A stretch of 60,000 nt of DNA from Bolinopsis microptera. Its lineage: Eukaryota > Ctenophora > Tentaculata > Lobata > Bolinopsidae. Under the pieces are notes generated by a model that ran no database searches, had not been told where the DNA came from, and saw nothing but the letters and a program-made list of their open reading frames with translations. The position numbers and the translations under genes are program-made. Location of the stretch: assembly GCF_026151205.1 (NCBI RefSeq), contig NC_087081.1:9421246-9481245 (forward strand). The letters run 5' to 3'. Positions 8,552 to 42,627 of the stretch are shown here, in pieces; the stretch's first letter is position 1, and every line of letters starts with the position of its first letter.

Positions 8552-9634
8552 ACTTAAAGATTGAAAGCTGTTTCTTTATAATATACAAGTGGTTCAAATT
8601 ATTTAATTTGTGGATTAGTTTGTGAATTAATTAGTTTGATCATTCTTGTCCAGCTCATAAACGTTACAAATCTTAACCTTAATGCGCATTTTTTATTCGT
8701 TATAATTATATTTGTCTAAATCCACTATTAGAGACTCGATTCGAGTGTTTCGTAACTTGTTCAATAAATTTCACATTTTTGTAGCCTGCAGACAACAGAT
8801 AACAGCTTTTTTCACATCGCTAGGCCCTTACAATTATAAACGGCTATAAACGGCTTTTATAGCTCTAAGTCTAACTCTGTAATAAGAGCGGCTTCCAAAC
8901 TTCCATATACCTTACCGGACTTTACCGGCTGGACTTACCGGCTGGACTTACCGGCTGGAGGCCCTAGCGTTCATTTTAATGTTTGTTTTTCAGATATAAT
9001 GATTTAGGATTGAAAACTCTAAATTATTAATTTATAATTGAAAACTCTAAACCATTATCTACACTCAGTACAGTGCCCGGGAATGATCATACTGGTGGTT
9101 ATCCAGTTTAGGGGATCATTAATTAGGGAGATGACTGTTGACTAGATTTACTACGGTTAAATAGTTTGACTAGAGCTATACGTTGTGGGGGCATGCACTG
9201 AATAAGGGTGACGCGCGCTGCTGCATTCACGAATTTGTCAGTTCGAGTTTGATTAATTTGAAGCATTTGGATACGTGTTTGACTTTGTTTATAAAGTAGT
9301 GGCAACTGCTTCAAGCATGAGCATTTTGTTGAATTTATGCATAACTTTAAAGTACAACTAATTAGAAGTGTTGTTTATAAAATCGAGACAGTTTAATGTC
9401 GTCGGCAGGTTAATTCGTTTGGTTAGTTTTCGTCTGGGATAAAATAACTTCTAAAGAGTTAAATTTAGTAAACATTTGTTTTGACGTATAATTTAATATC
9501 TGATTGTGCAACTTAAATCATTTTATTTCGCTGTTATTTAAAGCATTGCGGAAGTTGTTATTTTCCAGTTTGGTTAAATGTATCCCAACTGAGAGATGCA
9601 GTATAAAATGTTATCACTTGACAACTCTATACTT
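8552..9634. other. Intergenic stretch upstream of the GPCR gene
   Basis: No recognisable gene. A short tandem repeat of TTACCGGCTGGAC units lies at about 8915-8960. The rest is AT-rich. Any promoter of the GPCR gene would lie here or in the following repeat, but no convincing core motif was picked out. Confidence 0.4.
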
Positions 9635-9779
9635 CTATACATTAGCGTTATTAAATACATTTTACTCTCTATACATTAGCGTTATTAAATACATTTTACA
9701 CTCTATACATTAGCGTTATTAAATACATTTTAATCTATAACTCTAAACTCGATACATTAGCGTTATTAAATACATTTTG
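9635..9779. repeat. 34-bp tandem repeat upstream of GPCR exon 1
   Basis: Four units containing ATACATTAGCGTTATTAAAT. The first three are spaced 34 bases apart and the fourth follows after a 47-base step. The array ends about 90 bases before the proposed start codon, so it lies in the promoter or 5' UTR. Confidence 0.8.
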
Positions 9780-9866
9780 ATTTAGCGATATCTGTTTGCA
9801 TGATACATACATCTATCAAATCATTAGCTGTACTATCTTATTATGGCAGAATAACTGGAACGTACA

Positions 9867-12800
9867 ATGACCCAAATACTGGACAACCCCTATTTCATGA
9901 TATTCCTATCTTCCACCCTTGTCCTGTTTTGCGCCATCGGCACTCTCGGTATGTTTTACTCAAATCAGCTGTTTATTTTTGACCTGGATTGTTTTAAATT
10001 AAATAGTTCTAATATTTTTAGCACTTTTATTTATACCGACCTTTTTATTGGATAAATGTAATTTATAGTTTTTAACATGATCTGAATAACTAAATTGACT
10101 CGGTGTTCGATTTACCAAAAAAAGGTCGTACTTTTGAATCGTGAGTGTTTAAACAGAAAAACTGAAAAACTTGTCTGAAAATGAGATTTTATGTAGTTTT
10201 AGTGACATAACAATTTCAGGTAATATTCTAGCATTGATCTGTGCTACAAAAAATCCCGCTCTCCGGACGGTTGGAAACAAGTTCATCCTCAACCTGGCGG
10301 TTTCAGACTTTTTCATCTGCACATGGACAATGCCAACTGTTGCCCTCTGCGTGATACGACGAGAGTGGACTCTTGGTGACCTAGGTATGTACTAACATGA
10401 CTTTTTGAGACCTATAGGTATACCCTAACTTGACTCTCGGTGAAAGTACTACGCACTTTCTGTCGCACGTCAGAGTTGTCTAAGATTAAACCCTTCACAT
10501 CACTTGCCCGGTCGTGGGGGTCCGTATAATTTATAGCCCTCAGACGATGTTGAGTTATTAAAAAAGGTTAAGTATCTTTGTCGGATTGTCATTACTACTG
10601 CGGTCTTAACTATGTTAGATGTGTAGTTAGATGGTTACAAATATTTACCCTGAAAACCGCGGGGAACTACAGATATCTGATAGCTATGAATATATATATA
10701 AATATTATAAGTATAAGTACAGTAAAAAAGTATTACAGTATATACATAAATACTCTAGATTGTTTGCCGGATTCATTGATCTGCTCCAGTTTGCTGTCAA
10801 TACACTCACAGTTGCTTGAGACTAAAGAATTAGTAGTAAATCTTTCAAAGTACGAAATATCTCTTTAAAAGAGCATCCTAGGCACCTTATAGATATCAAA
10901 ACGCATAAAAAGAAAACAAAAACATCAACCATCTTCTAACTTCTTCCACTCCTCCCTATCTAAAGCTAAAAATCTAAGGTCTTCGAAATCAGTCAAATTC
11001 TTAAGTCTAATATCAAGATTTCTACTAGTCAAGTCTTTTCTAATAACATTTAATAAGTTTAAACATGGTCTACCCCGTCTCCCTTCCATAAAAATATCAG
11101 AATTTATAGCAAATAACATAGAGGTGTATGCTGGTGAGTCTTCCTGTCCTCTTAAGATATGTCCTAACATTCTCCATTGAAACTTAGAGACTCTCACAGA
11201 CAAGGGAGTGACATAACAACGAGCATTGAGTGCCTCATTAGAAATAACCCCAGTAGGCTTTTTTAACTGAACATATCTGTTCTTATCTTGTATAAAAAAT
11301 ATACCTTGCCGGTCATTATTATAACAAATTATCCGTCCATTAATATCATCACCACGTGACGTCACACATCTCACCACGTGACGTCACACACTCCATCTTT
11401 AATCTGTCTCGAGTGTCAATTAGTGAGTCCTGCTGAACTGAAGTGTGGTCACTATATTCCTACTGAGGTGTGGTCACTGTATTCCTACTGAGGTGTGGTC
11501 ACTATATTCCTACTGAGGTGTGGTCATGCTATATTCCTACTGAGGTGTGGACTCTGTATTCCTACTGAGGTGTGGTCACTATATTCCTACTGAGGTGTGG
11601 TCACTATATTCCTACTGAGGTGTGGTCACTATATTCCTACTGAGGTGTGGTCACTATATTCTTACTGAGGTGTGGTCACTATATTCCTACTGAGGTGTGG
11701 TCACTATATTCCTACTGAGGAGTGGTCACTATATTCCTACTGAGGTGTGAACACTATATTCCTACTGAGGTGTGGTCACTGTATTCCTACTGAGGTGTGG
11801 ACACTATATTCCTACTGAGGTGTGGACACTGTATTCCTACTGAGGTGTGGTCACTGTATTCCTACTGAGGTGTGGTCACTGTATTCCTACTGACTACTGA
11901 GGTGTGGTCACTGTATTCCTACTGAGGTGTGGTCACTATATTCATTATTCCTACTGAGTTGTGGTCACTATATCCTTACTGAGGTGTGGACACTATATTC
12001 CTACTGAGGTGTGGTCACTATATTCCTACTGAGGTGTGGACACTATATTCCTACTGAGGTGTGGACACTATATTCCTACTGAGGTGTGGTCACTATATTC
12101 CTACTGAGGTGTGGTCACTATATTCCTACTGAGGTGTGGACACTATATTCCTACTGAGGTGTGGTCACTATATTCCTACTGAGGTGTGGACACTATATTC
12201 CTACTGAGGTGTGGACACTATATTCCTACTGAGGTGTGGTCACTGTATTCCTACTGAGGTGTGGTCACTGTATTCCTACTGAGGTGTGGTCACTATATTC
12301 ATTATTCCTACTGAGTTGTGGTCACTATATCCTTACTGGGGTGTGGACACTATATTCCTACTGAGGTCTGGTCACTATATTCCTACTGAGGTGTGGTCAC
12401 TATATTCTTACTGAGGTGTGGACACTGTATTCCTACTGAGGTGTGGTCACTATATTCCTACTGAGGTGTGGTCACTGTATTCCTACTGAGGTGTGGTCAC
12501 TATATTCATTATTCCTACTGAGTTGTGGTCACTATATCCTTACTGAGGTGTGACACTATATTCCTACTGAGGTGTGGTCACTATATTCCTACTGAGGTGT
12601 GGTCACTGTATTCCTACTGAGGTGTGGTCACTATATTCCTACTGAGGTGTGGTCACTGTATTCCTACTGAGGTGTGGTCACTATATTCCTACTGAGGTGT
12701 GGTCACTATATTCTTACTGAGGTGTGGTCACTATATTCCTACTGAGGTGTGGTCACTATATTCTTACTGAGGTGTGGTCACTATATTCCTACTGAGGTGT

Positions 12801-15800
12801 GGTCACTGTATTCTTACTGAGGTGTGGTCACTATATTCCTACTGAGGTGTGGTCACTGTATTCCTACTGAGGTGTGGTCACTATATTCCTACTCAGACTT
12901 TCCCTCATTACTTAACATGGAGCCTTGTTTTCAACTCCAGGGCCTGGTGTCGCTTATATGTCGCTTATATGTAGTATAACATGACGTGCAACTAAACAGT
13001 TAACCTGCAAAGATATTGCAAAAATATTGATCGTCAAATTGTCACATTTATAACTCACAGCGCCGTGAGCATCTGATCTGTCAAAAAATCACTTATAATT
13101 CGAGGTTTCATGAATTTATAATGTCACGCCTATAACCATTGACCACGCAGTCACTATGGCAGCACATGCAGTCACCATGACAGTACATGCACAGTCATAC
13201 TTACAGATATAATGATAAATAACAGGTAGATTCGTCTCCGCACCTGGGTCTCCAGTTAAACCTGAATTAAGAGCAGATCAAATTAAACAACACCATATTG
13301 AGATGGGTCTACCAGTATAACTAAAATTTCTCCGCTAGAAAAATTAACGGTTTAATCATCGGAAATATAGTTTGCCACTGTAGCAAAGCCGAAGTATGAG
13401 GTAGTGACAGACAATTAGCTAAATTCTATTTTTTAACATACCATGTAAGCTATAATTTGAGTGCCGGTGGAGTGCTGGTATGCACCTCTCTACATTGATT
13501 TTGACCCTTAGTAGAGCCTTGTAAGAGTAGTTGTAAGAGTAGTTGTAAGAGCCGTTGTCAAGAATATTGAGAAAATAACTCGTGCACTAACAAACACCAA
13601 CGAACATATTTATGGGAACAGACTTTTAGGGATTGCAAAAGAAAATGAGTGGTTGTAAATGAACTAGAAAAATCGAGTGAAGAAATTTAGGATGTGATTT
13701 CCATGTTGTGTTTATCCAACAAAATGATAAGAAACTAAATTATATACATTAAACAGCCCCTAACCCAATATCTGTTTACAGCGTGTGAGATCGGAGGGTT
13801 TATTGACAACGTGATGCTCACAGCCTCCGTTTGGACACTCGGATTCTCCTCTCTCAACAGGTACTTCAAGATCACCAAACCCTTCCAGTACGCCAGCTTC
13901 ATGAACCAAAGGAACAGCAATCTTATCATTTCTGCAATCTGGATCATTGCCATTCTTACTGCTGGTTTGTTTTTCAGAGTTTATTTTTGTTTTGATGTTC
14001 ATTCATTGAAAAAATTTCAGGTGATAACTTAATAAGGTTAAATTTGAATGTTATTTTAAAGACACAGACTACTTATTTTTGAGCAATCAACATATCCTTA
14101 TATAATATATAGTTCATACTCTACAATTTAAGAATTTATAATGATCTTGCAACTTTCCCACGGGTAAGATTGAATGATACCATTTATACCCTTTCTTGGC
14201 TTCATCAATTTCTCTGATTGTTGAAACATTTATAAATTTCATATCATTTTACACTGTTTCACGAAGGAGCTGCCTGGCACAAACTCAAACTGTTTAATAC
14301 AACAGCTGACCTACTTAGTACTTGAATCTAAGATCTGTCATTCCCTTGCATTGTGAAACTTGCTTATGGAGCGAGCTGTCAGCTAAACAGTACTTGCGTC
14401 AGCCACGGTTTCGAGCTGTCAGTCCGATTTACCCGTGGTAAAGTTTAAAACTGTAATTAGATCTTTTAAAGGCATTGACCTTACAGTTTTTGTTAATTAA
14501 CAGATACCAGGGACCAAACACGAAGGGTGCCTCCCTCACAAACTCTCCTTAAACTGCATAATTACGATCTCTGGCGAGTTGGGGTTAATGCATGTATATC
14601 GCTTGAAATCAAAGTTCACGAATCAATCCAATTTTAAGGTCTTATTATGAAGAGTGACTAGACTGTTATAAGATCATTAGAGCTTTAAAGTTGATACCGG
14701 ATGCTAAATTTTGAGATTACACCAGGTCTCCTGCGACAATGTAATATTTGTTCTGCACCATCATCAGCTGCAATCAAGAACTCAGAACTGTTTTATTAAC
14801 AACCTGTCATGTAAAAACCTTTATGGTATTTTCTACGTTTATAAATATGATATCACAATTTTTGTAGATCCTAAATGTCTCTGCATTTAGCGAGGAATTC
14901 ATAAAAAGTAACTCTTCAAAGCTTTGCTAATTGACTTATATAATTGCTGAACTTGCAGACGGTATATTATTGCCACGGGCCTTTATATTTGTAAACAGCT
15001 ATAAGACTTTGAGAGTAATTTTAAATGGTCGAATATATTGAGGAAGAACTGCCTAAACCTCTAAATGCCCTATAAATACAAAATCCCGGCATAGAAGTTA
15101 AACTTATTTAACCCTAGATACAGACCCTAGTGAGGGACATTATTTGACACAAATCATTATCAAACATCGAATGTCGGAAATCATGTTAGTTTAATGAAAT
15201 TCATTATGTATTCATTATGAATACTTTGATATGAATATTGTAATAATAACTGTTCCTGGAATCCATGGAGTAGCGTTTTCTTGTCACGCACATCTCGAAC
15301 ACATCTCGAATTAATTGAAATAAACGAGTGCAAACTTTAAACTTTTGCGGCCCATCTTACACAAACTATTTTCTCTGCTAAGATTGATTTAAGGAAAAAA
15401 AGGTGAAATTTATTCATCTCAGGAGGCCAGTTTACCAAGTAAGATGCCTAATTCTTTACTCAATTGTTCTAACCTACCCTCAGGTCCTCCTCTTGTGGGC
15501 TGGAACTCTTACAAGTTCAACGGATCCCTCAGCTGCGGTATCCACACTATAAACATGTAGGTTATAACCTAGGATATTGACATGTAGGATGACATGTAGG
15601 ATATTGTAATGTAGGATGTTGACATGTAGGATATTGACATGTAGGATGACATGTAGGATATTGTAATGTAGGATGACATGTAGGATATTGTAATGTAGGA
15701 TGACATGTAGGATATTGTAATGTGGGATGACATGTAGGATATTGTAATGTAGGATATTGACATGTAGGATATTGACATGTAGGATGACATGTAGGATATT

Positions 15801-17074
15801 GTAATGTAGGACGTAGGTAACTTAATATTGAATATATTTTACCACCTATAGCTAATTTTTGTGTTATCAATCAATTTCAGTAAACTGAGTTTGACTTTAA
15901 TTCTAAAATTAATATGCTGTCTCCACTCTTTAGTTTCGCGTATAGAGTTTAAGTTGTCTGTCTCTGAGAAACATTACGGTTTGATTACCTAATGTCTATA
16001 TTCCGACATTGATAAATTTGACATAATATCTTGATCAGACGACAGTTATCGAAAATTAAATGTGTCTGTATTACAATTAATATTTTGAGTGATACGTCGA
16101 CTCACACGATGATTTTTTTTCTTTTTTTGACACGATGAACTCAATCCTGATACCTGAATATCCCAGGACGAGTTTAGCAGGAAGGTATTTTATCTACCTG
16201 ACAGCCATGTACTTACCAGTACCACTATGTCTTATACTATTCTCCTACACTCACATCTTCCTGACAGCTAGACGCCAGTAAGTTTAGTTATTATTTATTA
16301 TGATGATGCGTTATGGTCTTATCATTATGAGAATTCGTTTTGAGTTTTTTTGATGATCTAATGATTCGTAAAAAATTTAGAGAAGTACCCCACTGCAGTG
16401 AAATTTAAGATAAAGCCTGCAGAAATAAATGAAATGGATAACTACAATGACAAATTAAAGAAATGAAAAGAGTGATCAAGCCGTGATATATAATTTCGTA
16501 GCCTCACCTGATCCCAATAACTAACAGGAAAAAAGCCTCGAAAGCCCGGAAAATGAACCACTTCGCCACGACCAGCAACCTCAAAGAAGAGCCCAACAGA
16601 ATCCCCGAGGAGATGCCCGGAAGGTCTTCAGAGGACATGCCCTCTGCTGAAGCTGTCTCCTACCCGAACCACACCGAGGATATGCTCCAAACGTCTTCTC
16701 AGCACGGGAGAAAGCCTCCTCCCCGACGGTCAGCACGGGCCTCAGGGAGACTGGACAGAACCACCATTATGATAATTGTTATCATCGGCATGACCATGAT
16801 CACACAGATACCAGTCTGTTTTGTGTATGGTATCAACTATTTCTTGTTCGGGGACGACTCCAAATCACGGATTCACTTGCCGGACTACATAGACATATTA
16901 CTTCACTGGCTCTTACTGCTGAACAGTGCCGCTGATCCCGTCATATACGGACTGATGAACCCTCCTTTCCGACGGGCTTATCTCAAATTCTTTAACAGTC
17001 TGAGGTATATTATGACTAAGAGAACCCGGGATAACACTGTTACCAGGAACGCAGAGTCTTACCTCTACAAATAG
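9867..17074 (+). CDS. Rhodopsin-class (class A) G protein-coupled receptor, six exons
   Basis: Seven-helix membrane receptor, assembled by GT-AG exons 9867-9948, 10220-10384, 13782-13964, 15484-15556, 16167-16277 and 16528-17074. Phases agree and give 386 codons. Landmarks: TM1 with LGN (about residue 28), TM2 with LNLAVSDF, the TM3 disulfide Cys84, NRY at 108-110 in place of DRY, ECL2 Cys161, a TM5 Pro (YLPVPLCL), a long charged third loop (about 206-280), TM6 with QIPVC but no CWxP, and DPVIY at 341-345 standing for NPxxY. There is no retinal Lys in TM7, so it is not an opsin. NRY and the TM2-TM4 sequence recall melatonin-receptor and moody/GPR84-type orphans, but the ligand is unknown. The N-terminus is short (about 7 residues before TM1), so an upstream exon or other start is possible. 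Coupling to G proteins at the plasma membrane is inferred from the family. Confidence 0.88.
10925..11377 (-). pseudogene. LINE C-terminal fragment in GPCR intron 2
   Basis: Open minus-strand ORF of 150 codons whose part from GVISNEALNARC through RVSKFQWRMLGHILRG to DREEWKKL matches, motif for motif, the C-terminus of the LINE at 54229-55566 (ISNKALYARTQ, RVEKARWTMLGHVLR, and a shared PAY.S.LFA block). It is the extreme 3' end of the same or a sister family, without a reverse transcriptase domain. It is antisense to the GPCR and intronic, so a dead insertion. Confidence 0.75.
11441..12893. repeat. 25-bp minisatellite (about 58 copies) in GPCR intron 2
   Basis: Tandem copies of TACTGAGGTGTGGTCACTAT plus ATTCC. 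Variants are mostly single-base (TATA/TGTA, GTC/GAC). A longer variant with ATTCATTATTCC and GAGTTGTGG recurs at about 11940, 12300 and 12505, which points to higher-order blocks and unequal exchange. It lies wholly in the intron between exons 2 and 3 of the GPCR. Confidence 0.95.
12894..13781. other. Remainder of GPCR intron 2
   Basis: About 890 bases between the minisatellite and the exon 3 acceptor (TATCTGTTTACAG, with AG at 13780-13781). No ORF or repeat of note; a short GTAAGAGTAGTT triplication lies near 13520-13550. Confidence 0.5.
13965..15483. other. GPCR intron 3
   Basis: AT-rich intron of about 1.5 kb from donor GTTTGT to acceptor CTACCCTCAG. No ORF or repeat of interest was recognised in it. 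Confidence 0.6.
15557..15815. repeat. Minisatellite starting at the GPCR exon 4 splice donor
   Basis: Exon 4 ends AACAT and the intron starts GTAGGT. Directly after it run about 19 copies of ATGTAGGAT, in units such as GACATGTAGGATATT and GATGACATGTAGG. Each unit repeats the CAT|GTAGG junction, so the array carries many donor look-alikes beside the true donor. The start of the array coincides with the splice site. Confidence 0.85.
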
Positions 17075-19863
17075 AGCTCGCAAAGTATATATAAAGCTCC
17101 TTCAATCTCCTATTAAATTCTCGGGTAGCCTTCATTATTTAATTGCCAAGAGATTGAGGGGGATGGTGGGTGTTGTATTGAATTTGACATATGTTATTAA
17201 ATGCGAGTGTTCAACTTCTAGTTCAGACATTGTGGCGGTGTGTCAGAACGTTACTTGTAGTTGCCAAGGCAACTAAATTCTGACAGCTGCATCAGAGTAT
17301 CTTAGAATGGTATGCAGTTTATGGTGAAAAATGGATATTTAAACTTTTATAAGCGGTTTAAATTTAATTAAGTATTTCAGACGTTTTGGTTCACTTAAAA
17401 AAAATTTATGAGCACGAAATGTTTGATTTATCATCATAATAAAAAGGTTCAAGCCGAATAATAAATCGATTAATCACTTTTTGAAATCATTTAATTGTCA
17501 CTAAGGTTGGTGGACAGTTAGATGGAATTAACGTCGCTTGAAGACCCTCTTTAGCCAGCCTGGAGTTTACCAATTGGATTAAATGAGGACATTATTGATT
17601 CAGAACTTTATTTTATGAGGCAGAAATATTAAAATTCTGATCAAAAACATGGCCAAAAATATTTTTGCGCAGTGCCAACAATGATCATCATATTTTATAC
17701 CAATAAAAGTTTTCATGAATGGAAAATTCTGTCGTGTCTAAATGCGAGAGCTGCAGTCGGGATATACAGTTGAACAAAGTATCTAGACGGTAACCCTGAC
17801 TTGGTAACCTTCGTTACCAGGTTCAGTTACTATGGACCTCAGAGTAGACAATTAGCAAACAAAAAGTCAATCGCAACAATTATAAGGACAGGTTTACTAT
17901 TTTCTAATTGAACGTAATGATTTATTTGTGCTTGTTTTTGTTTAATTTTCATGTGTTTATTGTTTAATGAATTTGATTTTACCATGCCAATATTTTGATA
18001 TATTTAAATGACGCTATAATTGTAAAATTCCGTGACAAAGGCATGCGAATATATGTTTTTAACACAATACTCAATTTTATTTTAATAATCAAATTTATTT
18101 TGATATTTTTTGATTACGTAATCGATAAATCGTAATCAAATTGGTTTTGAAATATGCTTTTGCAAGTTTTACCAGTTTTTTTTGGGGAAATGATGCAGAA
18201 AATATCTCATTCAGAGATATTGGTATTTTATGGTACAATTATATCACCGCATACTATACAGCTATAATTCATACTTAAAGGCTTTAATTTTTAAGGATTC
18301 GGTATTATCATAGGACAGTATTATCATAAAACTGACAGTTACAAATTACAGTATCAAGCGATACTGATGTTAAATGGTATGTTATACTGTTATACTTCCA
18401 TATTGAACATCTATAAGTATTATATGATATCCAGACTAGCAAATAATGCTAATATCCTTTTTAAACGCTAGATTGAAACAGTGTCTTGCTGCTGAATTTT
18501 GAGTGCCATTATGTCTTCGAATCGATTTTATAAGCAATTACTTAACTTAAAAGATAAGCTCTTCGTTGGTTAATAAATTTTCATCTCGAACGCTAAAATT
18601 TTGAAGTCTTAATTCTATAGATACAAATTACATGTCAGCTCATTACACCTTACCGTTACACCATTACATTAAGGCTTGCTATTTTAAATTAAACTAATGT
18701 ATTAGAAAGTGTTTTTAATTGTGACATTCTCATTGTAATGTATAATTCTTTTTAATGTTTACATGTCAATAAAGTTAATGTTTTATATTAATTAGATTTA
18801 ACCCTCCTCTTATATTGATTTGCGGTACCAAGAATTACTACCATATTTGGAATTACGACCTTATATGGTAGTAAACATTACTGTCGAAATTGTTGCGTGT
18901 CAAAAGAAATATTTGGCCGACATTCTACTGTTTATCCAAAACAACCTAGAAACAACCTAGAAACTTTAAATTGTCATATTTGATTACAAGAAACTTCGAA
19001 AATGATATGCTGTTTGAAGTTCCATTACCCTTTATAATCAAAACTTGTAATCTATTTGCCAGTTTTGTGAACTTATGAATTCTGACAACCGGGCGGTAAA
19101 GCCAATTAAATTATCAGAACGCTGTCACGTGCGTATAATGAATTTGTATCATCAATTTGAAATGCAATTCCTGTCATTCAAGACTCTGACACTATTTGAC
19201 AACTCAACAAAAGATATGTCTCCCGTACCGGAACCATTATAAGCTTCCTGTAACTTATTAAAAATATTAAACTGTTAACTGTTTTTCAAGGGATAACGAT
19301 GAAATAACTTTACTGACTATACTGTTAAACTAATTCATTTACATGCATAGTTACATACTTATTCTATTCCAGTTCAATGTTTCAAGGTATTGTTTATGGA
19401 TTTTATTTTTGCTTGAAGAGAACCTACGTTATAGGAAAACTAGAACAATCTGATAACATATTGAGGCTATTTCGTAGTTTTATCTCATTCCATTGTGTAA
19501 ATGCTGTTTTGTGTGATACAATTAGTTGATTGATACAATCATAAGACAGTTTCTCATTAATTTCTAACCCAAATATTAATTTGTGACCAAATGATATAAA
19601 CTGTGTAGCCTTCATCAATGATGAAACCACAATGAACTGCCATCTCACTGAAAATAGCAATTTAAGGTCAAACTTACTGAAGAAGAAAAGTGAAAATAAC
19701 TGAAGATAGAAAGTGAAACTAATTGTAGCTGTGACTTCACATGATACTATCCAAGAATCATGTAGGTATAAACTCAAAATCATATATAGATAATAAATAT
19801 ATAGAAGACTAGAATCAATAGTTTAAAGAGTATAACAATTAAATATTTAGAAGCTGTTATGAA
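17075..19863. other. GPCR 3' flank and intergenic DNA
   Basis: AT-rich stretch of about 2.8 kb. The GPCR stop codon is at 17072-17074. Possible polyadenylation signals occur downstream (for example AATAAA near 18768). A minus ORF of 119 codons at 19424-19783 has no recognisable domain and ordinary AT-rich composition; I do not call it a gene. Confidence 0.4.
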
Positions 19864-19970
19864 AATTAAAATTCTCACCATGACAAAACATTGACACTAA
19901 TCTTCTGCGACAGTTTTTACAATTGTCACATATTAGAATCAGCAACAGGGTTGTCCATTACATATCCTTC
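19864..19970 (-). pseudogene. Duplicated 3' tail of the SLC18B1-like gene
   Basis: About 105 bases are nearly identical to 20363-20469, which encode the last residues and 3' UTR start of the transporter gene. In the duplicate the reverse complement still reads EGYVMDNPVADSNM followed by a stop, but the sequence just upstream (EDDEGY...) diverges and soon meets an in-frame stop. It is a direct, same-orientation duplication of the gene tail about 500 bases downstream of the original. It could act as an alternative last exon only if an acceptor upstream is used. Confidence 0.75.
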
Positions 19971-20425
19971 GTCGTCCTCTTACACCCCTGCACGTAACAG
20001 TGGCGACGTAATTGATAATGTCCCCGATCATGATGACGTGGACGGAGACGGTATGTTGTTATCAAATTCTAGTTTAAACTGAAAATGCATTTGGCACAAC
20101 CGGTTCTCAGGAAAACAAAAATATGTGATTAATAATCATGTATTAATGTTATTCATAGTCGCAACGTCTCAGTAAAATACATCATAACATTATCATTACG
20201 TCGTAAAAATAAAGTATTTGTAATACTAATACTATTACATGCAGCCATAAAAATAGGTCGTGGATCGTATTTTCAATTTGGGATATATTTCTAAGTTTCT
20301 CAAGAGTTCGACTTTCTAAATAGTTAAATTACAAATTTTGAATTATGGAGCCGCTGTAAATTAAATTAAAATTCTCACCAAGACAAACCATTGACACTCA
20401 TCTTCTGCGACAGTTTTTACAATTG

Positions 20426-21817
20426 TCACATATTAGAATCAGCAACAGGGTTGTCCATTACATATCCTTCCTGTTCCACGTCTGCGTTCTTTGATGATGA
20501 TCGCATGACATTGATGCAGTAGGCGATACAAAGCAGTGATTGCGCTATGTAAATCAAGCCGAGGGTACCTGTAGACCAGCCAAAGGAAGCGTATGGTTCG
20601 ATGAATCCGGACGTTATTGTCCCAATGAAGATACCGAGAGGATACGCCGCACAGTAGAGGGAAACCAATGTATTGATAACCAGGATCGGCAGCTTACCTT
20701 GATTCCTAGATTGGTAAACTTGAAACATAACCGGCAGCGCTGAGATGCAAGCCATTGGAACTGCTAACCCCAAGAAGGCAAGAGAAAGAAGTAGCTGTGT
20801 TCTGGAGGGGGTGACGAATCTGAGTAGAGGGAGAGGGCCCACAAACACGTACACCAATGGCAAGGACATACTGGACGCAATCATCATCTTACACGGACCA
20901 AACTTGTCGATGAGAAGACCTAGGAAGGGAGAAGAGACACAAATTACTGCAGTGCTGACCAAAAGTGCGGTCCCAGACCAAACCACTCCCGCATCGAATG
21001 CCTCTTTTACATAGGTGGAAAGCAAAGGCATGTGGTAGGTGATGAGGATTTGAGATGAGGCAAGGTGCCACAATGGAAAGAGCACCCAGGGATCCAAGAT
21101 AGTCTTCAAGCTTGAAGGGTCTTCGCCTGTACGCCTCTTTTTGCTGTTTAGACTTGGTAGAAAGAAGGCTGGGACAGCACTTATGAGTATTAGAGAACCT
21201 GGAACCATAGCAGCAGCAATGTAACCACTAGCATCGTAGAGGACCCCGCCTAAAAAGGGTCCAAAAGCCACTGCTCCATTGAGAACAGCCTCACCTATCG
21301 ATGTGACAGTGGCGACATATTCAGGATATATTGCAACATATGCTGCAAATGTTGCGACGTTGATTATACCGCCGAAAATTCCTGCTATAAATCGAACTAT
21401 TAAGGCAAAAGTTTCATAGGCACTCGAATTTTTGATGAAATCAAGCATAGCAAAAAGGAAAACAGAAGTTGCAAGGCCACTAAAACAGCCCGAAAGGACG
21501 AATCTGGTTGAAAACTTGGTAATTACGATCGGGGCAATAAAAACACAGGATAGCATCAGTCCAAAAGAAGCTGCCCCAAGAATCAATCCTGTCCAGTAGG
21601 TTGAAATTTCTCTATTCTCATTATAGACCGGCAAGTAGGAGTAGGGCAGATTAAAGAAGACAAAGGTAAAGATATGGAAGATACACATTGCACCAAATAG
21701 GATCCTTTTCTTGTTTGGAGAATAACTCTTTATATCCCATTTAGGAGGGGGTGCTTCGGCTGATGTATCGGGGTCATCTATCTTTTCTTTAGTTTCGTGG
21801 CTGCAGGGTTCACCCAT
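20426..21817 (-). CDS. MFS transporter, SLC18B1-like (vesicular polyamine transporter family)
   Basis: Intact single-exon ORF of 463 aa, close to the roughly 450-460 aa of vertebrate SLC18B1. About 12 hydrophobic segments: cytoplasmic N-tail (1-38), TM1 about 39-62, and so on to a last helix about 417-438 with a cytoplasmic tail. Family motifs: RFIAGIFGG in TM4-5 (142-150), the antiporter motif C GAVAFGPFLGG in TM5 (181-191), and motif A in the TM8-9 loop, GLLIDKFGPCK (300-310). Known SLC18B1 proteins exchange protons for polyamines or monoamines in vesicle membranes; the same substrate here is inferred. A possible acceptor (CTGTTAG) lies just before the start codon, so the 5' UTR may be spliced. 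Lack of coding introns may mean an old retrocopy. Start chosen as the first in-frame Met before a charged N-tail. Confidence 0.9.
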   Translation of the reverse strand: MGEPCSHETKEKIDDPDTSAEAPPPKWDIKSYSPNKKRILFGAMCIFHIFTFVFFNLPYSYLPVYNENREISTYWTGLILGAASFGLMLSCVFIAPIVITKFSTRFVLSGCFSGLATSVFLFAMLDFIKNSSAYETFALIVRFIAGIFGGIINVATFAAYVAIYPEYVATVTSIGEAVLNGAVAFGPFLGGVLYDASGYIAAAMVPGSLILISAVPAFFLPSLNSKKRRTGEDPSSLKTILDPWVLFPLWHLASSQILITYHMPLLSTYVKEAFDAGVVWSGTALLVSTAVICVSSPFLGLLIDKFGPCKMMIASSMSLPLVYVFVGPLPLLRFVTPSRTQLLLSLAFLGLAVPMACISALPVMFQVYQSRNQGKLPILVINTLVSLYCAAYPLGIFIGTITSGFIEPYASFGWSTGTLGLIYIAQSLLCIAYCINVMRSSSKNADVEQEGYVMDNPVADSNM

Positions 21818-24299
21818 CCTTCTAACAGTTATACAGCTTAAGGTTATGTGTTATCATGAGTATTCATATCTACAAAATTGAAGTGCTTAATAATAATATT
21901 TGTCTAATTTTAAAAGTTTTTGTCCCTAAAATGCAAAAATAGAAACAATCATAGAGCGGGAGTTGCAAACATTTGAAAGAAATGTTATCAAAATGTTAAA
22001 GGGGTCATCGATATTTATTAGGTTATGATCGAATTTACAATAAATTGAAAATTCCTAGGGTAATTTGAGAAACAATGAAAATTTGAACTCCAAACCAACA
22101 ATTTCTTTGATAACACCGAAATAATCAATATTTTTTTGACAAAAAATCTTTCCAAATTGAATTCTCAAAACACGTATGCTATCGTCACTTGTCTCAAAAA
22201 TTGAATTCTGGATTTTAAATCCAGAAGAAACATGATCTAGAAAAGGCTGCAGGCAGTCCGGAATTCTTTGTTCCGCTGTAAGGCCTAACAAAAGTCACAA
22301 GACAACTGACAAATTTGTAGATCCAATTGTGCAATCGAACTTTGACGACGTTTTTAGAATATTACTGGGTTCATGTTACTTGAATAATTCATTGTCATCA
22401 TGTGTGCAGGTTTTAGGCGCAAGGTATCTAACCATTTTGATTTGATCTTCATTTCATCCAATCAAAAAGTCTGTTGAAGTCTACTGGTATGTGACCTGTC
22501 TTAAATCTTATTAAGGGCCGTGCTTTAAAGATGTGTGTATTAAATTATAAGATAAGAAAATGCTGCACTCTTTGTCTGCAACTCATGCTCATGTTTACAA
22601 GTGACTGGTCACACCAGGCGAGATCTTTAAAGGTGTGACTAGGATTGGGAGATAAAATAGGGCTCACTTATTCATTTTAATTATTTTTATTCAACTTCAT
22701 TGCATTGTACCTATTTGTACCATGGCCTTTCTCCCTTTCCCGAATAATCCGCATAGTGTTAAAGTACCTGAAGGCTACAGACTATAAAAATAAATACAAC
22801 GTATCTGAGAAAAATGACGTTTTAAAAAATGTCTGCTTCCTGAAGGCTATCAAAAAGTGAAATGTGAGGTGGTAAATGTAAGGGAGTATTTAACACTGGT
22901 AATATTATAATATCAGGTGAGACCAGCTCTTTTTAATTTTATTAAGGGTTCGCAATTCACTCTGATCCATTTTAATTTTAACACGTTTGGTTTAGTTTAT
23001 AAATAACAATATTTCAGCAATTTTTTGATACGATGAAGAATGAAATTAAGTCTAAGCGATTATAATTCGTGTATATAGGGAGTTACGCCAACATTTTTAA
23101 AGTTAACCTGATAATTTCCACACTACAAGTTTCTACCAAATGATTCAGCTTAATTCCTGCTCCCGTTCTATACAAAGTTAAACACCCTTATTTTCAGCTT
23201 CGTGAAATTAAATTATCTTCAAAAATGTACGAATAAAAACAATTAATGATGAAGTCTACTGTCTATTACTTCATAAATTAACGATACATGTACTGCAATC
23301 ATTGTAGGCAGATAGTCAATTTTAAATTTAATTGTAGTGATGGTCAACAATTTAAAGAATATTATCTGACAAGATGTTGCTACAAATACAGAAACGGAAA
23401 ATTCAACAGAAAGTGGTGCCATAAAAATGTTAAGGATAAATATCCCCAGGCAAAAAGAACTGGGAACTGCGAGATCCTAAAATCCACACAAAATACTAGC
23501 CTTTGAATTCGAACTACTCTATGAACAGTTTCATTGCAGGCAGGAGGTGGCAATATATTCCGATTTTTTTTACAACCAAGACGTAACAAAATGCATTTAT
23601 GATGATCTTTGAAAAAGTTGACTTAAAAATCAATTTTATCGCAGAGTAGACCGAAATTTATTGAGGCCTGTTTTTATTTTTTAGATTTGTGTGCAAATTC
23701 TCAATAGATAAATCTGACTGCAATGTTACATCTGACTGTAATGTTACATCTGACTGTATAATGTAACATCTAAGTTTCGGATTACATTTACTTTACACTT
23801 TACTTAAGAGAAGAACATGAGTAGCAATTCCACCACTGCTAAATTAATTTGTGTCGTAAATACTCGAATTTAAATCACGGTGTTATGTTGAAATCGAAGA
23901 GATTGGGGGTGGAAATTCATTTAAAATGTCTAGATGAATTTAAATTTTCACCATTAGTCCTAGCTGATCATCAACAAGTCCATTTATTAATGTTAATAAA
24001 TGTAGATTATAGACATCTGTAAGTGATTTATCAGCTCCAATTCCACAAGAAAATATAGCTGTTTTTCGTTTTTCATTTTTAACAGCATCCTAAGGTCACA
24101 AATACTGATAAGTAACACTTATACTAATAGTCAACAGTAACATCTGAAAATGATCCTAAAAATGTTTGGTAACAGCATAATTATTGATTAAGTTTCATAA
24201 CGAAGAGCTGCATATAAGGAACTTCGCATTATCATATATTAATAAAGTCACTAAATAAGAAGTAGAGTGTAGACATCATAGTGCTATCACAGAGCTTCA
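21818..24299. other. Intergenic stretch between the two transporter loci
   Basis: About 2.5 kb of AT-rich DNA upstream of the SLC18B1-like gene and downstream of the SLC6 locus. Only short ORFs without motifs. A small tandem repeat of 'atgttacatctgactgta' units lies at about 23722-23768. No gene is supported. Confidence 0.45.
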
Positions 24300-27063
24300 T
24301 TAAAATTTACTTCTCCAGAGGGAGACAATCTTCTCTTTGTAGTAGAAGATCATGTAACCGGGAATCATGAAACACGAACTGAAAATATTGGGTTTTAGCA
24401 AGGAGAAAATTATAGAGGATTTAAGAGGACGTTGATGAAGAAAGATAAACTTACAAAGCATTTAACAGGACGATGATGAAGAAATGTAAACTAACAAAGC
24501 ATCTAACAGGACGTTGATGAAGAAATAGAAACTTACAAAGCATTTAACAGGACGTTGATGAAGAAATAGAAACTTACAAAGCATTTAACAGGACGATGGT
24601 GAAGAAAGAGAAACTTAAAAAGCATTTAACAGGACGATGATGAAGACGAAGACTCCAGGATACTGATCCTTCACTACCCACGTCGGGTTCGCCTCCAAAG
24701 GAAGACCCTGAATTGTTAAGAATATCATTATTACTTCTCTTTACTGATAGCATTATAATGTTGATGAAGCCCTTTCCTAGGGATTTAAATACCGGCATCA
24801 AATAGTGATACTGTCAAACCATTTTATATCAATGTCAATTATATTTTCCCCATCAGAAGATGACAAATAATTTATCAATTAACCTGGGCTTCCAAGGTGC
24901 TGTTGTCACACCCGACAAACTTATCATACAGTGGATACCCCTCAATGATGGACAGACCAATCCTGAAAGTATCAGGACTGCTATAACGAGATGACATATC
25001 ACCAGCCAGCAGGCATTGAAGTAGATATTCGGTTCATATCCTATCATAGCCTTGATATCTTTGCAGAACCTGCGGAATTAATGAGCGATATTGATATTTT
25101 CACAAAGCGTGTTTTATCAAGTTACTTTCCATACCCCTACGACTTCTTTTTCCTCGACATAGTTATTTGACTCCCAACTTATTATACTCCCGAGTTTAAG
25201 CTTATAAAATCTCAGCCCTAAATCAAACCATACGTCGCAGGGTTATACAATATACATTGAGGTGAAGTAAACTTTCTAAGTTTAATCAGTCTGTAATTCA
25301 GTACTTCATGTCATTTTTAATTTCAAAATTCAAATAAACTTTACATCAATGTATTACAGTTACCTTTACAAAAGACCACAATATCTCCTATGAGGGAAAA
25401 GACATGAAATATGAAAGCTAGAAAAATATATGAAAGCTTGAAATAAGAAAAATATCGATATAGGCCGATATTTAGAACGATTCTATTTGTATTTTATATT
25501 CATTTATTGCTGTACTCTGTGAAGTTGGAGAAGTATTTAATTGAAAAAATACTAACTTGTTAACACCATATACCCAAGCCACGACAACAATCTCTAAAAA
25601 AGCGACGATGAGGAGAGGATATGACAAGGACCAGTTATCAAGGAGGTCCACGATGTAGAGGCCTCCTTCGAAGGACATGGGAATAGCAAGGATACACAGC
25701 ACCAGACAGATACCTCCTGAAAATGTTCACACGTTGGGGAATTTATAATATTTCAACAACTTTCTGGCATTATCATACGACATTTTATCATTCTTCAAAT
25801 TTCAGAACAAAACATTAGTCAGTTTATATTTTATTCACAACCATCCAAAACAAACCTGAAACAAACTCCTTCCTAATTTTATTCAGATAAGTAAACTCAT
25901 CCTTAAGTGAGGTGAGGAGACTTTCCAACATGCCAAACTGAGAGTCCAGACCAAGGAGGAAGAGCATGAAGAAGAAGAGGATGGACCAAAGGGGTCCCAC
26001 TGACATCTCACTGATGGCATCTGTTATTGCTATGAACGCTAGACCTGGCCCTGATCAGCTCCTCAAACTTCACTCCTGGTAGTACAATGATTGGTTATTA
26101 GATTCAGTTATGACAATTATTTCATTAATTATGACAATTATGGCATTAATGCTACTAAAGCAAAAGAATAAAAGATGCTTATATATAAGTTTTCTAACAC
26201 CATCGTTGAGATTTACTGGTCTTGTGAAGATAACGAATCCGCCGAACACGCTGGTACCACATTTTATTAGCGTAACTACTATTCCATCTGGGGGGAAGTT
26301 TAAACATTATATCAGTGTCACTTCTACTAAGAAAGCTTAATTTGAAGAAACCTATATTTGAAGAAAAAATCACATCTATTCTATAATTTTGATGAAAATA
26401 AAACCCTAGATGCGATAACCCTGCCTGCTGTCAACATTTTGAATACTCAAAGTATTAATTCACGTTCTATTATATAACCAACATGCCGATCAGAGGGGAC
26501 ATTTTGCTTGTTGTACCCGTGTTTTCACTGTTAACACTTTAAACTACTGTACCTCTGATACAGTCGTTGTTGCTCTTGTTGTATGAAGAGTAAGTGACCA
26601 CACTGCCAAATGATATTCCCCGCGAGTAGAATATCTGGGTAGCTGCGGTTCTCCAGACTGTGGGGTCCGCTAGGTGCTCCCACTGTAAGGGTGATTATTG
26701 TTAGAAACTTTAACTTAAAATTATGTTATAGTAGTTCAAACTAGCAATGTGATATTTATTCTGAGAAATCGTTGCAGGTTGAATTTGCAATGGTATACGA
26801 GCTGAAGCTGTAACTTAAACTAGAAAACATATTTATTTTTAAGCACAACTGCAATGACTGCTGATGTATCACAGACTTAAACCTCCATTCAAACACAAGG
26901 ATACATTTCCTAACTTAAGATATAACGCATACCTTTGGGGTAAGGTAGTAGAGGATGCCTTCTCTGGCTCCGGGCAAAGTGACTCCTCTGAAGAACAGAA
27001 CAACAAGCAATAGGTAGGGGAAGGTAGCGGTGAAGTAGACAACTTTACCTGACGATTCCACCC
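24300..27063 (-). pseudogene. SLC6 neurotransmitter:sodium symporter, 5'-incomplete and damaged
   Basis: Eight exons in order: 26933-27063 ([21 protein letters not shown]5), 26553-26682 (DPTVWRTAATQIFYSRG, TM6, then SSYNKSNNDC), 26217-26287 (KCGTSVFGGFVIF, TM7), 25856-26050 ([34 protein letters not shown]8), 25557-25716 (MSFEGGLYIVDLLD, VVVAWVYGVNK), 24884-25069 (FCKDIKAMIGYEPNIYF), 24619-24707 (NPTWVVKDQYPGVFVF, TM12) and 24300-24378 (CFMIPGYMIFYYKEK, stop). Family members use the sodium gradient to take up transmitters or amino acids at the plasma membrane. Damage: TM1-4 exons are not found upstream; about ten residues after VIFT are missing; a frame break near 26052; a one-base frame break near 24955; and the donor after TM12 reads TT instead of GT, leaving an in-frame TAA. 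Several breaks together favour a pseudogene, although assembly errors could explain single ones. Confidence 0.75.
24421..24651. repeat. 41-bp minisatellite built from an SLC6 exon end plus splice donor
   Basis: Five full copies start at 24447, 24488, 24529, 24570 and 24611, with a partial one from 24421. On the minus strand each holds the end of the TM12 exon (ATCGTCCTGTTAAATGCTTT) followed by donor-like GTAAGTTT. The copy joined to the real exon has lost the donor (CTTTTTAAG), three others keep CTTTGTAAGTTT and one has GTTAGTTT. Confidence 0.9.
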
Positions 27064-27673
27064 CTGAGAATAAATTAATGTGAAGTTAACATGAGCATGT
27101 AGAGATTCATTCACAATTGATAATACATTGAGGAACACTGGCAGTACTCGAATCTAACAATAAACCTCCTAGCCGATCGGACTGCGGACACACTACGTTT
27201 ATAGGTTAAGATATTTGGTGGATTCGTGTAGTGTTTTTGAGTCTCATGATTTGATAGTTCTTTTATTCAAATTTCTGATTGTTTCTGAATAGACTCAGTG
27301 AAGACAGATTCTAATGGAAATAATGGAAATAATGGAAATAAATAGCTGAATAACGTATCGACATTTCTACGTCATACTCATATTCTGAAATAGTATTAAT
27401 TCAATTAAAACGATCAATATTCACATTAAAAATTTGACGACGAAATTTATTTCAAACAAAATATATAACTGTAAAATAGTTATCAACCGTAAAATAGTTT
27501 TTAACGAAATCATAGCAAATATGAACATAAAACTGACAAAATTTATCAAATAGGGCTCATCTGAAAATTAACGAATAGCGTGACGTGTATAGGAGATAAA
27601 AGATTAAAAGAGATAAAAGAATTAATGGACAGCAGAGGAGTGAAATTAAAACGAGAATATTACTATTCACACG
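27064..27673. other. Upstream flank of the SLC6 locus, no further exons seen
   Basis: Searched by eye on the minus strand for the missing TM1-TM4 coding exons and found none. The sequence is AT-rich with a short 'aatggaaat' triplication near 27313-27340. Confidence 0.45.
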
Positions 27674-27946
27674 TCACTCAACTAAAAACTGTGTTAGATT
27701 GTTCAACTCTATTTTATCGTTGAGTGTTGGTTTATTTTCAACTAAAAATCGGGCTTCTTTAATCTTTCTGTTGATGAGTGATGTTCCTCTATCTACGATT
27801 TGAAGTTTTAGCTTTGGGGGGCCTTTGTGCTGAGGGTGACTTTCCCTGTAGTGCTTTGCTAGTGGCTTATCTTCGTAAGATTTTGCTGTTGGATTTGCCG
27901 CACTACGGTAATGCTCGTCGAACCTGCACTTGATCGGTCTGTATGT
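27674..27946 (-). pseudogene. GIY-YIG nuclease-like fragment (Penelope-type or similar retroelement)
   Basis: Minus-strand frame of about 90 codons, with no start Met and an in-frame stop upstream, reading RPIKCRFDEHYRSAANPTAK, KPLAKHYRESHP, KLKLQIVDRG, then RKIKEARFLVENKPTLND. The R..EH block, the downstream H, and the conserved Glu followed by KP.LN are the second half of GIY-YIG endonuclease domains as carried at the C-terminus of Penelope-like elements. The GIY-YIG strand itself is missing. No reverse transcriptase was found next to it. Confidence 0.65.
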
Positions 27947-28456
27947 TTAAGATATTGGTCCGAAAGCAACCCAAAAATGTTTCTACATAGTGGGATTGAT
28001 GAACATAGTAAATTTAAATTCGTTACAATTTGCTGGCCGTGAATGAATGGTAAAAGCGAGCGACCATTTTATTCTCGGTATCATTTTGCACTTTAATTTA
28101 CTTTAAATATATCAATATGTCATTTCTTTTTGTTTGGAAAAATGTAGCACTGGTGACGGTCCAATTTACCCGATCTTGGTAAATACAGCGAATTTTAGAG
28201 AATACGAATACAATTACACGACGAACAATTCCTGCGGTCAGGCAACATGCAATCAGGTGATCTGCAATCAGGCGATCTGCAATTCTAGTGATTGAAAATC
28301 ATGAAGTAACGGCGATAATTAGTGATTTGGACCTAATTAACCTGATCGTCAACACGCTTTTATCTTTAAAGGTGAGGGATTGTTTGATGGGCGAGGGTCT
28401 GAACGTTGTAGTGATGTGAATTTGTGGATTATTATTTTCAGTTGACCATTTTATGA
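27947..28456. other. Stretch between nuclease fragment and long inverted-repeat element
   Basis: No gene. A small tandem of AATCAGGTGATCTGC-like units lies at about 28250-28290. Confidence 0.4.
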
Positions 28457-29259
28457 TAGTAAGGGGAAAAGTGGCATTCCGTTGGATTTAAATGTTCACA
28501 AGGATTTAGCAACGGAATATGGTAGTTAAAACCCCTACGAACATAATTAGACTTGTCACCAATTTTGTATCTCGACAGAAACACCACTTTTTACCACTTT
28601 TTACCACCTTTGTACCACTTTTCTGGTTTGCCGAATATCTTTAGTTGTGAACGTCGTAGAAGGCTGGAAATTAACCTAGAATGTTTATCTTATCAAGGAG
28701 TAAAACTTTTATAAGAAAAATGTGTACATTGGACAATCAGCTAATTGGATAATTACCAATTAGTTAATTACCAAAAAAAGTGAAAAATTTTTATTGGCTC
28801 AAAATGATTAAAATCGTTTGAAACACGGAGAAATGTAGTTTTTAGAAAAACTTCAAAACTTTTTCACTTACAAATTTTTTTCGAGACTTGGAAAAATTTC
28901 GAAAATTTGAAAAAAAAAATTTCCGCCAAAAGTGATCGAATTGCATGAAACGTGGATAAAAATGCTTTGCAGAAAATCTTCGAACCTTTTTAGATTGGGG
29001 AATACTAAAATCATCAATATTTGAAGTTGGAGTTCAGTAAATCTCGGCATATTTTAGTAATTAGGAATAGCTTAGCGGAAAGGGCTGAACCTGAAAAACG
29101 TTAACCACACAATATTAGAGTTTCATAACTAATTACAATACAGCTTTATCAAATTCCACATAAAGAAACAGCACAAAAGGACCGTTTAAGATCGAACCGA
29201 TTTTACCTGCTGTATACTATCATTTTATTGATTTCAATGATCAAAACCTCTCTGTACCG

Positions 29260-41681: not shown

Positions 41682-42218
41682 GTTAGGGTTAGGGTTAGGG
41701 TTAGGGTTAGGGTTAGGGTTAGGGTTAGGGTTAGGGTTAGGGTTAGGGTTAGGGTTAGGGTTAGGGTTAGGGTTAGGGTTAGGGTTAGGGTTAGGGTTAG
41801 GGTTAGGGTTAGGGTTAGGGTTAGGGTTAGGGTTAGGGTTAGGGTTAGGGTTAGGGTTAGGGTTAGGGTTAGGGTTAGGGTTAGGGTTAGGGTTAGGGTT
41901 AGGGTTAGGGTTAGGGTTAGGGTTAGGGTTAGGGTTAGGGTTAGGGTTAGGGTTAGGGTTAGGGTTAGGGTTAGGGTTAGGGTTAGGGTTAGGGTTAGGG
42001 TTAGGGTTAGGGTTAGGGTTAGGGTTAGGGTTAGGGTTAGGGTTAGGGTTAGGGTTAGGGTTAGGGTTAGGGTTAGGGTTAGGGTTAGGGTTAGGGTTAG
42101 GGTTAGGGTTAGGGTTAGGGTTAGGGTTAGGGTTAGGGTTAGGGTTAGGGTTAGGGTTAGGGTTAGGGTTAGGGTTAGGGTTAGGGTTAGGGTTAGGGTT
42201 AGGGTTAGGGTTATGGTT
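41682..42218 (+). repeat. (TTAGGG)n tract, about 88 copies
   Basis: Almost perfect TTAGGG hexamers for over 530 bases, with one TTATGG variant near the end. It is internal to the contig, with unique DNA on the left and a GGGGGTCAATTGTC array on the right, so it is interstitial here. Long ORFs (VRVRV, LTLTL) over it are not coding. Confidence 0.97.
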
Positions 42219-42627
42219 AGGGTTAATTGTATTAAATTATATTTTCGGGGGTGCAATTGTCGGGGGTCAATTATCTGGGGGTCAATTGTCGGGGGGGGGG
42301 GGGGTCAAGACTCAATTGTCGGGGGGTTAATTGTCGGGGGGGTCAAGACTCAATTGTCGGGGGGTCAATTTTCGGAGGGTCAATTGTTGGGGGGTAAATT
42401 ATCGGGGGGTTAATTTGTAATTGACGGGGGTCAAGACTCAATTGTCGGGGGGTCAATTGTCGGGGGGTCAATTGTCGGGGGGGTCAAGACTCAATTGTCG
42501 GGGGGTTAATTGTCGGGGGGGTCAAGACTCAATTGTCGGGGGGTCAATTTTCGGAGGGTCAATTGTTGGGGGGTAAATTATCGGGGGGTTAATTTGTAAT
42601 TGACGGGGGTCAAATGTCAATTGTCGC
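42219..42627 (+). repeat. GGGGGTCAATTGTC array joined to the TTAGGG tract
   Basis: Starts TTAATTGTATTAAATTATAT, the same junction sequence that follows the array at 30037-30470, then about 20 units of GGGGGTCAATTGTC or GGGGGTTAATTGTC, with a ~170-base block duplicated (compare about 42330-42440 and 42500-42610). Ends CAATTGTCGCC. The partner block expected on the left side of the TTAGGG tract is absent. Confidence 0.85.

Follow-up and report, generated by a model that had tools for sequence, protein, structure and literature searches.

Minisatellites straddling exon ends and 5' splice sites in the ctenophore Bolinopsis microptera: probably ordinary tandem duplications grown almost neutrally

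The SLC6 gene and its 41-bp junction array

The window analysed here, a stretch of 60,000 nucleotides of the ctenophore Bolinopsis microptera (NC_087081.1, hereafter C10, positions 9421246-9481245, in a genome of 264.65 Mb), holds among other genes an SLC6 transporter and a G protein-coupled receptor (GPCR), in each of which a minisatellite lies at an exon end and iterates sequences resembling the 5' splice site (donor). An earlier note on this DNA had read both arrays as repeats grown from a donor, had suggested a shared mechanism seeded at exon ends and had proposed that the arrays could multiply alternative donors. Both stand far above the noise of Tandem Repeats Finder (TRF), in a sequence where arrays with a TRF score of at least 100 occupy 14.6% of the window and 0-44% of five arbitrarily placed 8-kb pieces.

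For the profile search of the SLC6 gene, the exon pieces were joined and the broken frame was read across. The joined model is matched by Pfam SNF (PF00209) at 1e-37, over profile positions 325-521 of 524, corresponding to transmembrane helices (TM) 7 to 12, and by sequence it matches solved glycine transporter 2 chains at 2e-29. Its features are as follows.

24404-24646, minus strand: 41-bp minisatellite (TRF: 5.9 copies, 89% match)
24707-24619, minus strand: TM12 exon, 89 nt, phase 2 end, ...YPGVFVFIIVLLNA; TT in place of GT at its own donor
24378-24300, minus strand: last exon, CFMIPGYMIFYYKEK, acceptor TTTTCAG|T, ..CFMIPGYMIFYYKEKIVSLWRSKF-stop; phase matches the TM12 exon
24885-25073, minus strand: TM11 exon, frameshifted by a 1-nt deletion when compared with the paralog
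27052-26933, 26667-26548, 26054 to ~25856 and 25717-25565, minus strand: further SLC6 exons, approximate (Pfam; paralog matches)

The repeated unit consists of the last ~27 coding nt of the TM12 exon, the donor and ~14 intronic nt; that it spans the coding end and the donor, as first proposed, is borne out by the unit listing, the phases and the array of the paralog described below. The original count of five repeats at 24447-24651 was close to what TRF delimits, the missed detail being the exon-attached donor, which reads TTAAGT. In the window, six junction-like sites follow one another at a spacing of 41 bp. The TM12 exon ends ..FIIVLLNA + TT and the copy attached to it reads TTT|TTAAGT, the GT of the first donor being lost; of the five other sites, three read GTAAGT, so that this hexamer is kept in 3/6 copies, one reads GTTAGT, and the last has decayed to ATAATT. 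The idea of a working donor in every SLC6 copy was rejected, since the first donor of the window copy is dead. The TM12 exon boundary is real; the exon joins the last exon in phase, and the joining restores a 17-residue YP...IP spacing that we take to be a feature of TM12 in SLC6 proteins.

A tandem paralog (L038), located 52 kb from the window gene, carries the corresponding array with 20 copies (L038:4686-5515) against six in the window. Its first copy reads TTT|GTAAGT, with an intact and phase-correct donor, and contains the canonical 5' splice site of the exon; GTAAGT is kept in 17 of the 20 copies. When the exons of the two genes were compared, the number of substitutions was 0-1 in five of seven stretches, 3 in another, and 4 together with one gap in TM11, the TM12 exon having none. 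The window gene differs from the paralog at several residues besides the frameshift. Because of the lost GT of its first donor and the frameshift in TM11, it looks like a decaying copy, although these defects may be sequencing errors; the paralog provides an intact version. The first copies of the two arrays differ by 2 mismatches and the last, decayed copies by 1; as the edge copies correspond between the paralogs, the array is older than the gene duplication and has changed in length since. No third place with the SLC6 array was found by a genome DNA search, which skips simple repeats. The two SLC6 copies, with 6 and 20 units, constitute a natural copy-number pair.

The GPCR gene and its intronic array

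The joined GPCR model belongs to class A, being matched by Pfam 7tm_1 (PF00001) at 1.1e-45 over profile positions 1-260 of 260, and its best PDB matches by sequence are aminergic receptors. The relevant features, including the exon that covers TM4 and extracellular loop 2 (EL2), are the following.

15484-15556, plus strand: GPCR exon (TM4/EL2), GPPLVGWNSYKFNGSLSCGIHTIN, ends AT|GTAGGT, phase 2 (Pfam; site listing)
15557-15562, plus strand: putative GPCR 5' splice site GTAGGT (phase fits acceptor 16166|16167)
15570-15811, plus strand: minisatellite of 12/15-bp units (TRF; possibly extended back to ~15553 by a degenerate first copy)
15813-15822, plus strand: two donor-like sites, GAC|GTAGGT and TAG|GTAACT, at the far array edge (U1 pairing)
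16167-16277, plus strand: next GPCR exon (TM5), from the sequence

The exon joins CCCAG|GACGAG at 16167 in phase 2. The exon end and the adjoining array had been correctly recognised in the earlier note; the array had been described as about 19 copies following the exon at once, whereas we count 18 ATGTAGG/ATGTGGG (ATGTRGG) sites including the donor, and TRF places the array start 14 bp beyond the exon end. The unit is ATGTAGGAT(ATT)GAC/GTA, 12 or 15 bp in length, and the donor is followed by 16 GTAGGA copies and one GTGGGA copy.

It is possible that this array has grown from the donor, but it is about as likely as not an independent intronic minisatellite which adjoins the donor by chance, the SLC6 array alone being derived from a junction. 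In favour of a chance neighbour, the exonic bases recurring in the units amount to only ~4 (ACAT), the TRF start lies past the exon end, and loosely similar TGTAGG-type arrays occur at several other places of the genome. Against it, the donor CATGTAGGT differs from the unit core CATGTAGGA by a single base and is thus possibly a decayed first copy; the edge copies of minisatellites often diverge. The GPCR donor may therefore be, at most, a degenerate first copy of the array. Regarding the pairing with U1 small nuclear RNA, the donor reaches -5.2 kcal/mol versus -4.1 for the CAT|GTAGGA copies, and the two far-edge sites, at -6.5 and -6.4, are the best among the GT sites of 15481-16166. Another intron of this gene (exon end ~10384, next exon start ~13787) contains a 57-copy minisatellite of 25 bp at 11437-12893 of the window.

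Reading of the downstream donors

For the window SLC6 gene, its paralog and the GPCR, the site of each copy was spliced in turn to the next exon and the product translated. Only the first site yields the full-length SLC6 sequence; all later sites (5/5 in the window, 19/19 in the paralog) meet a stop, with products ending ..VLLNAF-stop or ..VLLNAL-stop. The GPCR product ends ..HTINM-stop with each of the 17 later unit sites, and that stop also precedes any donor beyond them. These stops arise because read-through of GTAA or GTAG in phase 2 frames TAA or TAG. From the third SLC6 site onward, the stop lies at least 78 nt upstream of the junction, exceeding the distance of ~50 nt that in vertebrates exposes a message to nonsense-mediated decay (NMD). 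As every downstream donor is behind an in-frame stop, the extra donors in both window genes are predicted to be decoys and not useful alternatives. A multiplication of alternative donors is hence to be retained only in the sense of decoys, and the idea that alternative donors diversify the protein was rejected, all tested sites being behind a stop. When donors are duplicated, the intron-proximal one reportedly tends to win if both are strong; such a preference would mean the wrong choice at these arrays, because only the first donor is productive.

Junction arrays at other genes

We searched the genome for three occurrences of TTGTAAGT 28-58 bases apart and found 764 such triples versus 356 for the reversed word, single occurrences numbering 16181 versus 17189. 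For AGGTAAGT, there were 1491 triples versus 12 for the reversed word, and 10758 versus 7965 singles. A few huge arrays inflate the triple counts of both words. The listed matches, about the first 100, correspond to 12 places for TTGTAAGT and five for AGGTAAGT. Exon calls beside these arrays rest on homology, and cases with nothing but an open frame were counted as unproven.

Among the 12 listed TTGTAAGT places, two show good homology. In an SRCR gene (L062), the unit comprises the last ~25 nt of the exon and the donor, the exon-only peptide being matched by Pfam SRCR at 3.7e-5 (24.4 bits, slightly below the cut-off of 26.1), and in a CDK gene (L052; PDB CDK2, 7.1e-13) the array begins 3 nt into the intron after the exon. 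Homology is very weak at three more places. Two of these (L059 and L060) are one duplicated EF-hand-like exon, whose exon-only peptides reach Pfam values of 0.053-0.088; the third (L057) resembles troponin I (PDB, 0.031) as much as nucleoprotein TPR (0.027), with DUF3420 and ING in Pfam at 0.04-0.07. These EF-hand-like and troponin-I-like junctions are candidates that stay unproven. Another three places (L055, L056 and L058) offer an open frame only, and neither Pfam on the exon ends of L055 and L056 nor Pfam and PDB on L058 gave anything useful; at the remaining four (L053, L054, L061 and L063) no exon is visible. Exons were also scored by codon usage, with a model trained on 1434 codons, mostly of membrane proteins, that separated donors from random positions moderately; the low scores of L055, L056, L059 and L060 speak against these being exons.

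Among the five listed AGGTAAGT places, one (L107) is the end of a dynein heavy-chain exon (PDB, 4.5e-7) and another (L105) the end of a Sushi exon (Pfam 0.0024, under the cut-off) with 44 AGGTAAGT sites among the matches listed. At the three others (L104, L106 with one unit, and L108) no exon is visible. The dynein exon also has, within ~240 bp upstream of its donor, the coding sequence around MYQWSLLQFLPV duplicated internally, though not exactly, and the duplication may therefore reach further into this exon.

The most regular case is a myosin gene (L137), in which the P-loop exon (..VLCGPTGSGKSTALHYIVHYYAQ) has its last 30 nt and GTAGGAGAGC repeated exactly: at least 10 identical 40-bp copies, each of 30 nt of exon and 10 nt of intron, lie within the snippet. 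The exonic share of the units is ~25-34 nt in the window SLC6 gene (24619-24707), the myosin, the SRCR and the dynein genes and the EF-hand-like L059, and ~45-54 nt in the Sushi gene.

Junction-spanning arrays thus recur in the genome, at myosin, SRCR and dynein exon ends, with a weaker Sushi case and a CDK array that abuts its donor, which agrees with the recurrence anticipated for this pattern. As far as sequence can tell, the arrangement has good support at four unrelated genes (SLC6, myosin, SRCR and dynein). Seeding at an exon end, as the earlier note had imagined it, is supported for SLC6 by the conserved coding sequence within the unit and by the presence of the array in the paralog as well; it extends to the myosin, SRCR and dynein genes and, more weakly, to Sushi, the GPCR being maybe a plain adjacency.

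Precedents

Minisatellites that span a donor are a kind already known. In human ABCA7 (PMC5954066), intron 18 carries a 25-bp variable number tandem repeat (VNTR) directly after exon 18, the first GT being the canonical donor; the donor one unit downstream is sometimes used, leading to the retention of one unit, a frameshift and a premature stop, and a longer VNTR results in more skipping of exon 19, not in more unit retention. This is the closest precedent to the SLC6 paralog, with a donor inside the first copy and iterated donors one period apart. Nevertheless, the ABCA7 unit is described there as intronic, starting at the GT, whereas the SLC6, myosin, SRCR and dynein units add ~25-34 nt of coding exon, and ABCA7 is backed by RNA and population data whereas the present arrays, in several genes of one genome, are known from sequence alone.

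De Grassi and Ciccarelli (2009; PMC2812944) compiled a set of minisatellites at exon-intron boundaries from segmentally duplicated human DNA. There, the units are of ~30 bp and their copy number differs between recent paralogs, like the two SLC6 copies; RNA-backed changes of exons and novel introns are reported there, whereas the present repeats seem intronic and leave the first junction in place. According to its abstract, a report on German shepherd dogs (PMC3223203) finds that the copy number of a repeat in LHX3 intron 5 affects the splicing of a flanking exon; this repeat is of 7 bp, its authors favour an effect of intron length, and the abstract mentions no iterated donors. In DOK7 intron 4 (PMC5585400), neighbouring donors compete and one choice leads to a truncated protein. 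Unlike the SLC6 arrays, with up to 20 near-identical donors ~41 nt apart, DOK7 has a pair of dissimilar donors, separated by 11 nt and under the control of SRSF1. A narrow full-text literature search found no survey of units made of exon end and donor across many genes of one animal genome.

Origin of the arrays

Taken together, we find it probable that these arrays are ordinary minisatellites which began as a tandem duplication straddling the 3' end of an exon and then grew almost neutrally. A short segment across the exon end would first have been duplicated in tandem, and this duplication would have been tolerated, the copy at the outer edge retaining the exon, its frame and its donor, and the extra copies becoming intron. 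The array could then expand and homogenise under little constraint, each added copy being a donor of equal or similar strength unable to yield the full-length protein. The spliceosome would either ignore the extra donors or, by using them, lower the output through truncated or NMD-sensitive messages. In the window SLC6 gene, where the outermost donor is lost, splicing from a decoy would end the protein at the TM12 exon. The GPCR array would be either a junction duplication with few exonic bases in its unit or a repeat of the intron that has extended as far as the donor. As arrays are very common in this genome, some must straddle exon ends.

Whether arrays prefer donors was approached with a sample of 73 exon ends (58 from myosin and 15 from SLC6 matches) chosen without regard to repeats, the ends of homology matches serving as a proxy, some of which are not true exon ends. 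The myosin part derives from a Pfam myosin-head search, of which 58 of 73 matches were used, 38 of them as snippets and 20 as ends within two complete genes. The SLC6 part comprises 15 of 29 match rows: 11 rows belonging to the window gene or the tandem paralog were excluded deliberately, and three more by hand (two on C53, one on C2), and the C53 matches and those at 2.26 Mb of C10 may be one duplicated gene. With a background rate of 15 arrays in 23,051 bp of deeper sequence, an array of TRF score at least 50 starting within 45 bp of the exon end was found at 7/73 ends versus 4.32 expected (P 0.15), the perfect myosin array L137 being one of the seven. At a score of at least 100, there were 2 versus 0.58 expected (P 0.11), and at 200 or above 1 versus 0.29 (P 0.25). 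Arrays also end near exon starts, that is at acceptors (4/35). Hence, the array rate at sampled exon ends fits the genomic background, and the present data can be explained without any special seeding mechanism; no significant excess in this sample speaks for a shared, donor-specific one. A sliding test, in which the four arrays of 9000-28500 were shifted along that stretch against ten donors, some placed approximately, was unremarkable at a distance of 15 bp, at least two donors being touched in 32% of shifts (33% with rougher donor positions).

Two arrays end at the starts of myosin exon matches, L110:4461-6351 (minus strand, 8 bp x 240) and L109:5884-5981 (48 bp x 2). In L007:1310-1806 (C8:5733494-5736687), a TCCTAC-rich array reaches to ~8 bp from the acceptor of an exon whose peptide, GIEMVNIDNQDVADGNMKLILGMVWHLILHYQ, is presumably a CH domain. 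Its units hold TACTAAC/TATTAAC motifs resembling branch points, and 3' splice regions may therefore be iterated too.

Several observations weigh against a purely neutral origin. Listed TTGTAAGT arrays lie at exon ends in 2/12 cases with good homology, 5/12 with the very weak cases added and 8/12 with the open-frame-only cases, versus 0-2 of 40 single TTGTAAGT sites that resemble donors as judged by eye. These 40 singles all lie within 1.23 Mb of the start of a single contig, near-identical pairs included, and were assessed without a homology search. The Fisher P for arrays against singles ranges accordingly, from 0.22 (2/12 vs 2/40) and 0.05 (2 vs 0) to 0.0003 (5 vs 0) and 2.5e-5 (8 vs 2). This excess hints at a real donor preference. 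In the sliding test, two of the four arrays come with one edge to within 30 bp of a donor, a result reached in 2.3% of shifts (P 0.023), with a cut of 30 bp chosen post hoc in a window picked for looking odd. Finally, the exonic shares of ~25-34 nt in several genes may reflect a rule that would be unexpected under a purely neutral origin.

A donor preference of minisatellites is thus possible but unproven. In its broader form, 5' splice sites would be preferred birthplaces of minisatellites, giving a recurrent junction class formed independently in many unrelated genes, with units of ~30 nt of exon end, the donor and 5-25 nt of intron, and up to ~44 near-identical donors of which the outermost alone is productive; we regard this class, as a whole, as doubtful. 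Unlikely too, in our view, is a donor-directed seeding in which transcription, R-loops, nicking linked to U1 or to co-transcriptional processing, or the local sequence would start duplications preferentially at 5' splice sites. What speaks for such seeding is the finding of four well-supported unrelated genes, besides weaker ones, in small samples, the excess of triples over reversed words for AGGTAAGT and TTGTAAGT, and the more frequent location of TTGTAAGT arrays than of single sites at exon ends. However, the unconditioned exon ends show no clear excess, the triple counts largely reflect a few huge arrays, 7/17 listed places are without a visible exon, arrays end near acceptors as well, and the set of singles was drawn from one contig end and judged by eye.

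That the iterated donors are functional, through alternative isoforms or through a decoy-based down-regulation of expression, appears very improbable. The GTAAGT kept in most paralog copies would fit such a role, as would human ABCA7, in which the retention of a single unit gives a premature stop (PMC5954066). Nonetheless, in neither SLC6 copy does the conservation of the donor hexamer appreciably exceed that of the exonic portion (0.967 versus 0.960 in the paralog, 0.889 versus 0.944 in the window), all downstream choices meet a stop, and unit retention in ABCA7 is reported as unchanged with VNTR length (PMC5954066). An intron gain, in which the array created the intron, is hardly conceivable and was rejected as the origin: tandem duplication is described as a route to new introns (PMC4974935), but neither the array nor its unit includes the SLC6 acceptor TTTTCAG|T, and the intron therefore does not run between two copies.

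Natural genes with long series of near-identical donors, of which the first alone gives the protein in the genes translated here, lend themselves to testing how the spliceosome selects one site among equals. If donors are truly preferred birthplaces of repeats, splicing or transcription would be linked to the birth of minisatellites; if they are not, exon edges would tolerate repeat growth, and gene models in repeat-rich genomes would need care at exon edges.

Other features of the window

An interstitial telomere-like (GTTAGG)n tract of 544 bp lies at 41682-42225 (99% matches by TRF), and is adjoined by GGGGGTCAATTGTC-type repeats reaching 42626. On the minus strand, an open reading frame (ORF) at 33371-34000 resembles, as judged by eye only, a reverse transcriptase fragment (LEIEFLTNLGILQGDVLAPLIFIIVLDFIL..FADD). 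An uninterrupted ORF of 474 aa at 20429-21850, also on the minus strand and adjacent to the SLC6 gene, encodes an MFS transporter (Pfam MFS_1, 1.9e-26).

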